This document shows positions 310-3,601 of a stretch of DNA of 35,427 nt, in pieces. The position numbers were made by a program, and so were the translations under genes. Source of the DNA: Deltaproteobacteria bacterium (lineage in GTDB: Bacteria > JAEEML01). The stretch covers positions 1 to 35,427 of the forward strand of contig JAEEML010000095.1 of NCBI GenBank assembly GCA_016283195.1. Reading direction: 5' to 3'. Under the pieces are notes generated by a model. It ran no database searches. It was not told where the DNA came from and saw only the letters and a list, made by a program, of their open reading frames with translations. Position 1 is the stretch's first letter. Each line of letters starts with the position of its first letter.

Positions 310-1257
310 TTAGTCTTTGAGACAGCGGACGGAATAGCCATTAGATATAGTGTCGTGGCCCACGCCCACCAATGTGGTGACTACGTACAGATTACCCGCT
401 TTCTCTCCATCCAGCGTACTAGACCAGAAGTAGGCGAATGATGCGAAACTTTTGTAGATATTATTGTTATAATAACCTGCAGGCAAGGCACCAAAGGCAT
501 ATTTATCTGCTCCGCCGCTCCAACTGGTAGCACGCAAGTTCTCTGATGCAAAAGAGTTGTCGCCATCCTCTTTTACAGAAGTAATCAGGGTGTTAAACTC
601 TGTATCAGACGGTAAATGCCAGCCATCTGGGCAGACTTTTTGCGCATCTTCCCAATTATAGAGACACCCGTAATGTTCCACAAAATCCGGATCAGCTTCG
701 GTGTTGGTAAGGCAGGTTACTGCGCTGCCGTCGGTGGCTGTATCGCTGGCCATATTCTCGGCCATCCAGATTTGCTCACCGATTATGGTTGTTTTATAGG
801 CAACGCCGTTGGTGTCAGCCATGTAACCAAGGGCAAGAACAGAACAATCTTTACCGGTGTAACCTTTGGAACAAGAACATTCACCGTTGCCATTTAGGCC
901 ATCGTTGCAGGTGCCGTGCTCACAGGTGCAAGCAGCGCAATTTGCTCCAAAGTAGCCGGCATTGCAGTAAAGATAGCCGCCATTGCCATTTGGTAAACCA
1001 TTGGCTTTTGGCAAGTTTTCCGGGCTATAGATGACATAGGATGAGCCATCGGCCGGACAGATAACTATGCCGTGATCGGCATCTTTTTTCACCACATAGC
1101 AGCCTTCGCCGTCACTCCCTGCATCGCCCTTGAAACCTTGCGGGCCCTGTTTGCCTTCTGGACCTTGCTTCCCTTCCGGCCCTTGTTCGCCGGCACCGCC
1201 GCAGGCCGTGAGGGCCAAAGTTAACATTGCTGAGACTAAGACTTTACACTTTTTCAT
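310..1257 (-). CDS. Lipoprotein with collagen-like, EGF-like and FISUMP domains
   Basis: The start chosen is the ATG at 1257, which has AAGGAG just upstream; an in-frame start further out (1308) would put residues before the signal peptide. The 315-residue product has a lipoprotein signal ending in LTAC (Cys19), then a short collagen-like run of GPEG/GKQG/GPQG triplets (about 24-50), a Cys-rich EGF-like module (about 98-138) and a C-terminal domain (about 143-314) with WMAENM, CPDGWHLPSDTEF, FWSS and a terminal SVRCLKD, the hallmarks of the Fibrobacter succinogenes major paralogous (FISUMP) domain. Predicted to be anchored in the envelope and displayed as a binding or adhesion protein; the ligand is unknown. 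It is transcribed away from the repeat and toxin-antitoxin region. Confidence 0.8.
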   Translation of the reverse strand: MKKCKVLVSAMLTLALTACGGAGEQGPEGKQGPEGKQGPQGFKGDAGSDGEGCYVVKKDADHGIVICPADGSSYVIYSPENLPKANGLPNGNGGYLYCNAGYFGANCAACTCEHGTCNDGLNGNGECSCSKGYTGKDCSVLALGYMADTNGVAYKTTIIGEQIWMAENMASDTATDGSAVTCLTNTEADPDFVEHYGCLYNWEDAQKVCPDGWHLPSDTEFNTLITSVKEDGDNSFASENLRATSWSGGADKYAFGALPAGYYNNNIYKSFASFAYFWSSTLDGEKAGNLYVVTTLVGVGHDTISNGYSVRCLKD

Positions 1258-1260
1258 ACT

Positions 1261-1283
1261 GCACTCCTTGTGCCAATGGGCAC
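1261..1283 (-). promoter_or_regulatory. Mutually exclusive leader hairpins over the SD of the FISUMP lipoprotein
   Basis: On the minus-strand mRNA the segment just before the ATG at 1257 can fold two ways. GTGCC-CATT-GGCAC (1283 to 1270) leaves the Shine-Dalgarno free. GCAC-AAGGA-GTGC (1273 to 1261) places the SD AAGGA in a five-base loop. The two stems share the GCAC at 1273-1270, so only one can form at a time. GGA in a hairpin loop over the SD is the known recognition pattern of CsrA/RsmA; use by such a protein here is inference. Confidence 0.4.
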
Positions 1284-1306
1284 GGAAAATTTGTTTAGGT
1301 ATTTTC

Positions 1307-1395
1307 AATACCTAATATACAGGGTACCCTGTAAAATTTTGAAAAATCAGCGCGATCCCCCGCCTGTGGCTGGCGCCACTATGCCCCCAAGTTGC
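1307..1395. repeat. Repeat copy A (about 90 bp) with 16-bp palindrome
   Basis: The first 52 bases (1307-1358) are identical to 2331-2382. The following part diverges but keeps a GC-rich hairpin-like stretch and the shared GCGCCACTATGCCCCCA. Positions 1318-1333 are a perfect 16-bp palindrome (TACAGGGTACCCTGTA). The copy sits 50-140 bp upstream of the minus-strand lipoprotein start. No terminal inverted repeats or transposase are visible, so it resembles a REP-type element or a duplicated regulatory region more than an insertion sequence. Confidence 0.85.
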
Positions 1396-1530
1396 GCCGG
1401 CCCCCCAGAACTCACTTGAGCCTATAAAATACATATAAATTCAAACAGGTGAGCCCATCGCCATTTGTAAAAATGGAGAGGGGCGAGATGATAATAAAAT
1501 CCAGTACTTAGCGGGGTGAGGGAAGGCGGG

Positions 1531-1557
1531 GCCACTATGCCCCCAGTTGCCTCTTGC
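1531..1557. repeat. Partial repeat copy C
   Basis: Only the last part of the repeat is present here: GCCACTATGCCCCCA followed by TTGCCTCTTG, matching 2400-2425 almost base for base. The flanking GGGGC and GCCCC can form a 5-bp stem with loop CACTAT. It ends about 15 bp before the antitoxin promoter, just as copy B ends at the ispG promoter. Confidence 0.65.
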
Positions 1558-1571
1558 CGGGCTAAGAGCCG

Positions 1572-1601
1572 CTGGCAGAATATGGAAAGCTGTGCTATAG
1601 T
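1572..1601 (+). promoter_or_regulatory. Candidate promoter of the toxin-antitoxin operon
   Basis: CTGGCA (1572-1577), an 18-bp spacer ending in TGTGC, then TATAGT (1596-1601). The antitoxin ATG is about 17 bp past the likely start site. The layout matches the ispG and tRNA promoters in this window, which also have 18-bp spacers ending in TGTGC. Confidence 0.55.
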
Positions 1602-1623
1602 GAGTAGAGCTGGAGGTGCGCAG

Positions 1624-1860
1624 ATGTTAGCAGTAAACGGATATTTTGACGGAAATACTTGCATTGCTTTGGATACATCGCATTTTCACCCTAACCAGCG
1701 GCTTGTTATTACAGCCCTGGATGAAGATATTGATGCTAGCGATATACAAAAGCAAAAAGAGAAAGCTCTGGCAGAACTTCATGGTGTTTTTGGTATGCTG
1801 ACCCATGAGGAGGCTGAGGATATTCGTAATAATCGCGTGAATTTTAAGGAACGTTATTAA
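1624..1860 (+). CDS. Antitoxin of a VapBC-type toxin-antitoxin pair
   Basis: A 78-residue protein starting at the ATG at 1624, preceded by GGAGGTG. An in-frame upstream ATG at 1516 has no SD and runs through the promoter and partial repeat, so it was not used. The N-terminal part (about 1-36: AVNGYFDGNTCIALD, then VITALDED) resembles the small beta-rich DNA-binding domain of antitoxins that begin 'xxVxGxYxxGxxxxL'. The C-terminal helix ends LTHEEAEDIRNNRV, the usual toxin-neutralising tail. Its stop overlaps the toxin start in TAATG, so the two are translationally coupled. The role, neutralising the PIN toxin and repressing the operon, is assigned from this position and family pattern. Confidence 0.75.
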   Translation: MLAVNGYFDGNTCIALDTSHFHPNQRLVITALDEDIDASDIQKQKEKALAELHGVFGMLTHEEAEDIRNNRVNFKERY

Positions 1861-2258
1861 TGTTATATATGCTGGATACGAATATTGTTAGCTATTTGCT
1901 CGAAAAAAACGAAAAAGTTCTGGCTCGATTTGATACTATTTTTATGCAGAATAAGATTACAATTTCGAGCATTGTTCACTATGAGATCCAGCGAGGAATT
2001 TTTTGTCGGTGCTCAAAAAAATTACAGGAAAAGTTTGAGCTTTTTTGCAAGCATGTTCCTGTAATTGCTCTTACAAATTCTGATTTTATGCTTGCCGCGC
2101 GTATTTATGCAGATTTGCGTTTAAAAGGTAAGCCCATAGAAGATGCTGATATTTTTATTGGGGCTAGTGCTTTGGCGAATGAGGCTGTGCTGGTAACCAA
2201 TAACGAAGAACATTTGGGTCGTATTAAAGGGCTAAGAATTGAAAACTGGACGAAGTGA
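1860..2258 (+). CDS. vapC: VapC-family PIN-domain ribonuclease toxin
   Basis: A 132-residue PIN domain. Visible catalytic acids are Asp6 in MLDTN, Glu42 in HYEIQRG, Asp95/Asp97 in IEDADIFIGA, and the VTNNEEHLGRI region (Asn115/Glu116), where VapC/FitB relatives hold the fourth metal-ligand position. Length and motif order are typical. PIN toxins of this class cut RNA, often initiator tRNA or rRNA, when the antitoxin is lost; the target here is unknown. The pair is more AT-rich than its surroundings and lies between two copies of a repeat, which suggests acquisition by transfer. No terminator is obvious after the stop. Confidence 0.9.
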   Translation: MLYMLDTNIVSYLLEKNEKVLARFDTIFMQNKITISSIVHYEIQRGIFCRCSKKLQEKFELFCKHVPVIALTNSDFMLAARIYADLRLKGKPIEDADIFIGASALANEAVLVTNNEEHLGRIKGLRIENWTK

Positions 2259-2330
2259 GGTGTTCTACAAATTCGTCCATAGAGCCTCCTTTTAATACTG
2301 TTGGAACCTAATTTGGTGTTAGTTATTTTT

Positions 2331-2426
2331 AATACCTAATATACAGGGTACCCTGTAAAATTTTGAAAAATCAGCGCGATCCGCCCGCCTGCGGTGGGCG
2401 CCACTATGCCCCCATCTTGCCTCTTG
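2331..2426. repeat. Repeat copy B with the same 16-bp palindrome
   Basis: 2331-2382 is identical to 1307-1358, including the palindrome at 2342-2357. It continues with a GCCCGCC/GGTGGGC stem (about 2383-2399) and then GCGCCACTATGCCCCCA. The corresponding stem in copy A has changed sequence. The repeat runs directly into the -35 element of the ispG promoter. Confidence 0.85.
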
Positions 2427-2453
2427 GCCACTTATTCCCAGGTGTGCTAAAAT
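2424..2453 (+). promoter_or_regulatory. Candidate ispG promoter
   Basis: TTGGCC (2424-2429), 18-bp spacer ending GTGTGC, TAAAAT (2448-2453). The ispG ATG lies about 85 bp past the predicted start site, with SD AAGGAG near 2527-2532. Confidence 0.6.
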
Positions 2454-2542
2454 ATTGGCTGTGCTTTGAGGTTTAAATAACTTCACGCAAGAAAAACCAG
2501 CCTGCCCCAATAGAGCGGCGAAGTTAAGGAGATTACTAAAAT

Positions 2543-3601
2543 ATGGGTTCCCCAAAAAGTGTTAAAATTGGCACTGTTACCATTGGCGGCGGCGCACCCA
2601 TAGCCATTCAGACTATGTGTAGCACTAAGACGGCTGATGTTGCGGCCACTTTAGCCCAAATAAAGGCCCAGGCAAAAGCCGGCTGTCATGTTACCAGAGT
2701 GGCTATTCCCAATAAAGAAGCGGCCTTGGCCCTTTCCGCTATTACTAAAGAGAGCCCGCTGCCTATTGTAGCCGATATCCATTTTGATTACCGCCTGGCG
2801 CTTATGTCTATAGACGGGGGCGCCGCCGAAGTGCGCATAAATCCCGGTAATATTGGCGCTAAAGAGCGTGTGGCCGAGGTGGTAAAAGCGGCCAAAGCGG
2901 CAGATATTCCCATCAGAATCGGCGTCAATAGCGGCTCGTTGCCGCAAAATCTGCGTCATTTACCGCTCTCTGAAGGGCTGGTACAGGCGGCGCTGGATGA
3001 GATAAAAGTGCTGGAAGATCTTGACTTTTCTGCCATAAAGATATCCATCAAAGCCACCGATGTTCTGACCACGGTAAAAGCCTATAGAAAGCTCCACACT
3101 CTATGTGATTATCCGCTCCATTTGGGGCTCACCGAGTCGGGAACGCTCCTTAACGGTGCCATAAGGTCCAGCGCCGCCCTGGCCATTTTGCTGAGCGAAG
3201 GCATTGGCGACACTATTCGCGTTTCTCTCGCCAGCGATCCCATAAAAGAGGTACTGGTGGCCAAAGAGCTCCTGCGATCTCTTGACCTTTATCAGGGCGG
3301 AGTGGTGGTTCATGCCTGCCCAACCTGTGCCCGCTGCCATGGCTCAGTTTGGCAAATGGCCGAAAAACTTGAAGAAAGGCTCGCCACATTTAAGAGTAAA
3401 CGCACTATTAATCTGGCTGTTATGGGCTGCGAAGTCAATGGCCCCGGCGAGGCTGCCCTGGCTGATATGGGCATGGCCATGAAGGGGAATAAAGAAGCTA
3501 TTCTCTTTGTTAAAGGAGAGATGGTGGCCAGTGGCCCCGAAGAGGAAATCTTTAATAAACTTATCGAAAAGGTAGAAAATTATTATGCTGAAAAAATGTA
3601 A
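2543..3601 (+). CDS. ispG: 4-hydroxy-3-methylbut-2-enyl diphosphate synthase
   Basis: This [4Fe-4S] enzyme converts methylerythritol cyclodiphosphate to HMBPP in the MEP isoprenoid pathway. The 352-residue protein has the TIM-barrel start (IGGGAPIAIQTMCSTKTAD), RINPGNIG near 98-104, and the C-terminal cluster ligands Cys259 and Cys262 (CPTC) and Cys296 (MGCEVNGPGEA), with the conserved Glu303. Length matches the short bacterial form. Oddity: after CPTC the family usually reads GRTxxD, but here it is ARCHGS, adding a fourth cysteine (Cys265). The start follows AAGGAG by 10 bases. The 3' end overlaps the next gene by 17 bp, so the two are cotranscribed. Confidence 0.95.
   Translation: MGSPKSVKIGTVTIGGGAPIAIQTMCSTKTADVAATLAQIKAQAKAGCHVTRVAIPNKEAALALSAITKESPLPIVADIHFDYRLALMSIDGGAAEVRINPGNIGAKERVAEVVKAAKAADIPIRIGVNSGSLPQNLRHLPLSEGLVQAALDEIKVLEDLDFSAIKISIKATDVLTTVKAYRKLHTLCDYPLHLGLTESGTLLNGAIRSSAALAILLSEGIGDTIRVSLASDPIKEVLVAKELLRSLDLYQGGVVVHACPTCARCHGSVWQMAEKLEERLATFKSKRTINLAVMGCEVNGPGEAALADMGMAMKGNKEAILFVKGEMVASGPEEEIFNKLIEKVENYYAEKM

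Follow-up and report, generated by a model that had tools for sequence, protein, structure and literature searches.

The window, a stretch of 35,427 nucleotides, lies on contig C138 of a draft genome of 3.22 Mb in 190 contigs. Near its start, a lipoprotein gene, a VapBC-like toxin-antitoxin pair and ispG are separated by two copies of a repeat, called A and B (Table 1). Positions 1307-1358 and 2331-2382 carry the same 52 bases, and the wider match (1295-1361 and 2319-2385) contains three mismatches in 67 positions. Both copies carry the perfect 16-bp palindrome TACAGGGTACCCTGTA, in A at 1318-1333 and in B at 2342-2357; a search allowing up to three mismatches finds no others in the window, the expected number of sites being 0.05. 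The identical, palindrome-bearing blocks on either side of the toxin-antitoxin pair had been described in a first-pass annotation and were confirmed in position, as was the common tail GCGCCACTATGCCCCCA, found in both copies. A second dyad, TTAGGTATT-TTC-AATACCTAA at 1295-1315, adjoins the palindrome and was absent from that annotation. The VapC-like toxin also matches the NCBIfam VapC models (E 1.7e-27, below the curated cut-off) and follows a small antitoxin gene, as in VapBC systems; the antitoxin is recognized by position only, and family searches with the candidate at 1624-1860 gave no match. An 18-codon open reading frame with a strong ribosome-binding site (AAAAGGAGG) lies on the minus strand after copy B (2227-2283), overlapping the 3' end of vapC, and may be a gene remnant or due to chance.

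Table 1. Features around the two repeat copies (positions in the window) and leaders found on other contigs of the same genome.
Feature	Position	Strand	Remarks
Lipoprotein gene of copy A	310-1257	-	Signal peptide MKKCKVLVSAMLTLALTACGG, collagen-like repeat, EGF-like stretch, FISUMP domain
5' UTR	1258-1294	-	Hairpin GTGCC-CATT-GGCAC, ribosome-binding site AAGGAG, then start codon of MKKCK
Dyad 2, TTAGGTATT-GAA-AATACCTAA	1295-1315	-	Centre-to-centre distance to dyad 1, 20.5 bp; the predicted transcription start would fall within it
Predicted sigma-70-like promoter, TTCAAA-18-TATATT	1314-1343	-	Consensus match 9/12, also found at copy B
Dyad 1, perfect 16-bp palindrome TACAGGGTACCCTGTA	1318-1333	-	Between predicted -35 and -10, overlapping the first two -10 bases
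AT-rich upstream stretch, decayed GC stem, GGCGCCACTATGCCCCCA tail	1334-1395		Stem and tail REP-like, also found without the leader
Another dispersed repeat (CCATTTGTAAAAATGGAGAGGGG ... GGTGAGGG)	1401-1526		About 40 further matches in the genome
Third partial copy	1528-1545	+	Only the REP-like tail; shortly 5' of the vapB promoter
Predicted vapB promoter, CTGGCA-18-TATAGT, extended -10	1572-1601	+	Consensus scan
VapB-like antitoxin candidate, 78 aa	1624-1860	+	Position before vapC; 5' end in common with the C3 antitoxin
VapC-like PIN toxin	1860-2258	+	PF01850, E 1.1e-9; PIN match above cut-off
Copy B, orphan leader	2319-2385	-	Intact dyad 1; one damaged arm in dyad 2; not followed by a lipoprotein gene
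REP-like stem and tail, ispG promoter TTGGCC-18-TAAAAT, relic of promoter/mini-ORF module (ACTTCACGCAAGAAA)	2386-2494	+	
ispG	2543-3601	+	PF04551; NF001540 above cut-off
Leaders C48, C3a, C3b, C49a, C87			Full paralogues of the copy-A gene
Leaders C3c, C7			Start of the same protein, then contig end
Leader C49b			Leader joined directly to a FISUMP domain
Leader C46a			Start kept; frame seems damaged
Leaders C82, C88, C109			Cys-rich lipoproteins of a second class; C88 also has a FISUMP match farther along

On the minus strand, copy A forms the promoter and leader of the lipoprotein gene at 310-1257, whose transcription points away from ispG. The product contains the collagen-like repeat GPEGKQ (GPEGKQGPQG) and a FISUMP domain that passes the curated cut-off (PF09603, E 2.7e-29; TIGR02145, E 2e-33). 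A FISUMP member has been detected in the cell-envelope proteome of Fibrobacter succinogenes (PMC4619616). As in FISUMP (Fib_succ_major) surface families generally, the paralogous family is large, with 114 domain matches in this genome. In comparison, the leader described here is shared by only a subset of about ten FISUMP genes, fused to collagen-like and EGF-like segments; a literature search found the FISUMP family named, but no description of such regulation.

Among the paralogues (on C48, C3, C49 and C87, together with the gene at 310-1257), the N-terminal two thirds are fairly constant, and a hypervariable stretch is located just ahead of the conserved SVRCLKD end, with a mean identity of 18% in one 30-column block. 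A diversity-generating retroelement target was considered and rejected, as the search returned no near-identical template for the 3' part of the gene. Three reverse-transcriptase matches are present in the genome, one of them below the cut-off.

The predicted minus-strand promoter encloses dyad 1 in both A and B. This is a weak consensus match (9/12), and the promoter scan gave seven sites for 3.0 expected, matches being only moderately commoner than in shuffled sequence. Downstream, the 5' UTR region shows zero to five differences in 37 positions.

The sequence TACAGGNTANCCTGTA occurs at 13 exact sites in the 3.2-Mb genome, for 0.013 expected, with GGGTACCC at the centre of 11 and GGCTAGCC at that of the other two. 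Twelve of the sites lie just 5' of lipoprotein start regions, copy B being the sole orphan. Dyad 2 (TTAGGT-N9-ACCTAA, at most one mismatch) was likewise found at 13 places, every one of them a leader. The two dyads always occur together, with their centres 20.5 bp apart in intact leaders; dyad 2 of C7 is short of one loop base, and in C109 dyad 1 has decayed and dyad 2 is intact. The same dyad stands before many start codons and hardly elsewhere, as expected for the operator of a gene set. It had been proposed earlier that the segment forms a small repeat family upstream of promoters. The family exists, with its 13 exact copies, but each of them (B excepted) is itself a promoter and leader, and the lipoprotein gene that it serves lies on the other strand from that considered in the proposal. 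An integron attC site or gene-cassette array was also considered and set aside, as the repeat reads into a coding start and does not stand after a gene's stop. On C109, two leader copies are arranged in tandem (L051 6830-6950), the outer one degenerate, 5' of the Cys-rich lipoprotein gene.

The pattern of variation indicates that the leader is under functional constraint. In the six full genes, the 54-nt core has zero to five differences per pair, whereas 25-54% of the fourfold-degenerate sites differ in the N-terminal half of these genes (pairwise Fisher p 1e-4 to 1e-11). The leaders of class I (collagen/FISUMP) and class II (Cys-rich lipoproteins, C82/C88) have little in common outside the core: in blocks of ten, 8-10 positions agree over the stretch that spans both dyads, and agreement is close to chance from about 40 bases on the downstream side and 20-30 on the upstream side. 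Between the classes, arm changes are paired, G-C being replaced by C-G in dyad 1 and A-T by C-G in dyad 2. Covariation was scored at 0.118, compared with 0.042 for shuffled sequences (0 of 500 reach 0.118) and at most 0.058 for slid controls; the paired changes represent few independent events, and the one in dyad 2 also occurs inside class I (C49a). In copy B alone among the otherwise intact leaders, dyad 2 has a changed stem base opposite an unchanged partner.

From its sequence, the repeat can be regarded with some confidence as the promoter/operator leader of a paralogous surface lipoprotein gene family, carrying two dyads for a putative shared regulator. The two mirror-image sites probably bind one such regulator. 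Their distance of two helical turns, and their position over the promoter spacer and the start, would suit a dimeric repressor that binds cooperatively. This putative protein, most likely a repressor of the helix-turn-helix type, would sit on one face of the helix, at dyad 1 between the two promoter elements and at dyad 2 over the start of transcription, and its binding would switch about a dozen lipoprotein genes together. A further layer of control, over translation or the stability of the mRNA, may come from the hairpin adjoining the ribosome-binding site.

This arrangement resembles the operators of dimeric bacterial repressors, both in the perfect palindrome between -35 and -10 of a set of genes and in the second dyad about two helical turns away. 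It differs from them in that the regulator is only putative here and that the motif, at two mismatches or fewer, is absent from all 385 other genomes searched. With up to three mismatches, the 23-nt core pattern is absent from 375 of these genomes, and the hits in the remaining ten have three mismatches each; the nearest of these comparison genomes have only the domain in common with the source, and none comes from the same phylum. The core motif gave no hit in viral contigs or plasmids. Over the GTDB contigs, the palindrome pattern gave 12 scattered hits in unrelated lineages, which were judged to be due to chance. The feature is real and under functional constraint, and it is of an ordinary kind, a probable promoter/operator leader that is new in sequence and belongs to a poorly sampled lineage. 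An odd repeat thereby becomes a defined, testable putative regulon of surface proteins, whose two dyads offer a direct bait for the putative regulator. It is conceivable, though doubtful, that the whole represents a coordinated surface-display system in a phylum-level isolated bacterium, in which the putative regulator would act on the paired-dyad operator and co-switch a dozen lipoproteins whose N-terminal part is fairly constant and whose sequence is hypervariable in a stretch ahead of the C-terminus.

Control at the RNA level is the main rival of the operator, because the leader RNA folds well and a hairpin precedes the ribosome-binding site. The dyads would then be RNA elements in a leader transcript with two or three hairpins (dyad 1, dyad 2 and GTGCC-N4-GGCAC), controlling translation or mRNA decay. 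The leader RNA folds better than its shuffles (z -2.5 to -2.6; 5' UTR with dyad 2, z -2.5), the third hairpin adjoins the ribosome-binding site, and the paired arm changes suit RNA equally with DNA dyads. Were transcription to begin further upstream, dyad 2 could function as an RNA hairpin. However, with the best promoter match, which shares bases with dyad 1, transcription would begin midway through dyad 2, so that neither dyad would be transcribed whole. Moreover, dyad 1 has no loop, as in a DNA palindrome, and Rfam has no match at the leader (a snoRNA match at 1509-1630 is sub-threshold only). Taken together, RNA hairpins are an unlikely explanation of the dyads. Another process that could preserve the likeness of the leaders is gene conversion, and it has to be asked whether this or recent duplication alone could account for it, leaving the dyads without a function of their own. 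Such a history would suit the clustering of the family, with three copies on C3 and two on C49, and the high identity that extends over the signal peptide. It is nevertheless quite improbable, as the fourfold sites adjoining the leader differ far more and the class II genes have the core alone in common, with paired changes.

The location of A and B as direct repeats on both sides of vapBC might rather suggest a MITE or a site-specific recombination site, which brought the gene pair or could excise it; many small dispersed repeats are present in this genome, and a second vapBC is found beside a leader on C3. This is very improbable, since the homology between copies enters the coding sequence on one side and stops at varying points of the GC stem on the other, and every copy but one serves a gene. 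A MITE or transposon end was rejected for want of constant ends. The two vapBC pairs are alike at the DNA level only in the promoter and the start of the antitoxin. Furthermore, the closest relative of B is not A (91.7%) but C3a on another contig (96.4%), and several other leaders are as close to B as A is, or closer. B is therefore not a sister duplicate of A, and a target-site or insertion duplication was discarded on the same values. Nor do they support the first-pass suggestion of a duplication accompanying vapBC insertion, and neither does the block from the B leader through the ispG promoter to 2494, which matches C48 (7540-7734) with 79% identity over 197 bp. A repeat on both sides of a toxin-antitoxin pair is thus not necessarily a signature of mobility. 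To return to the operator leader, copy B appears from its sequence to be one that has lost its gene and is now decaying.

The GC stem and its GCCACTATGCCCCCA tail seem to constitute a separate REP-like element adjoining the leader. Without the leader, CGCCTGCGGCGGGCGCCA was found at C46:2884 and on C125, C168 and C187. The element shares with REP-like intergenic elements a GC-rich stem and GCCACTATGCCCCCA tail recurring between genes, and such elements account for the upstream edge of the repeat only, not for its palindromic core. The stems of A and B had been noted to differ while a stem remained possible in both. This holds for copy B, with an 8-bp stem (z -1.67), but copy A can form only another, weaker hairpin that does not stand out (z -0.97; 28 of 200 shuffles are equally good); this looks like decay of the consensus CGCCCGCCTGCGGCGGGCG and not like a compensated structure. 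The third partial copy reported before the antitoxin promoter was recovered as a match of 17 in 18 bases shortly 5' of the predicted vapB promoter. Members of the other dispersed repeat, at 1401-1526, are found beside accessory genes.

The region around the vapB promoter (1566-1644) is 85% identical to the promoter region of the second vapBC on C3 (L043 10612-11233). That pair encodes a different PIN toxin, has a similar promoter and antitoxin start, and stands head-to-head with a lipoprotein leader. On C48, the promoter found before ispG leads a mini-ORF beginning MASRKKLSNISKLPPL, followed by a DUF4160/DUF2442 pair, and a relic of this mini-ORF is present upstream of ispG. The C48 module at ispG and the second vapBC beside the C3 leader point to more than one round of shuffling that involved both the leaders and accessory genes. 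The module of promoter and mini-ORF recurs at L045 7655-7815, in L175 and L179, and at 2424-2494 of the window; its neighbours are unrelated accessory genes (the DUF4160/DUF2442 pair, an Rpn-like tail), and it is a relic before ispG.
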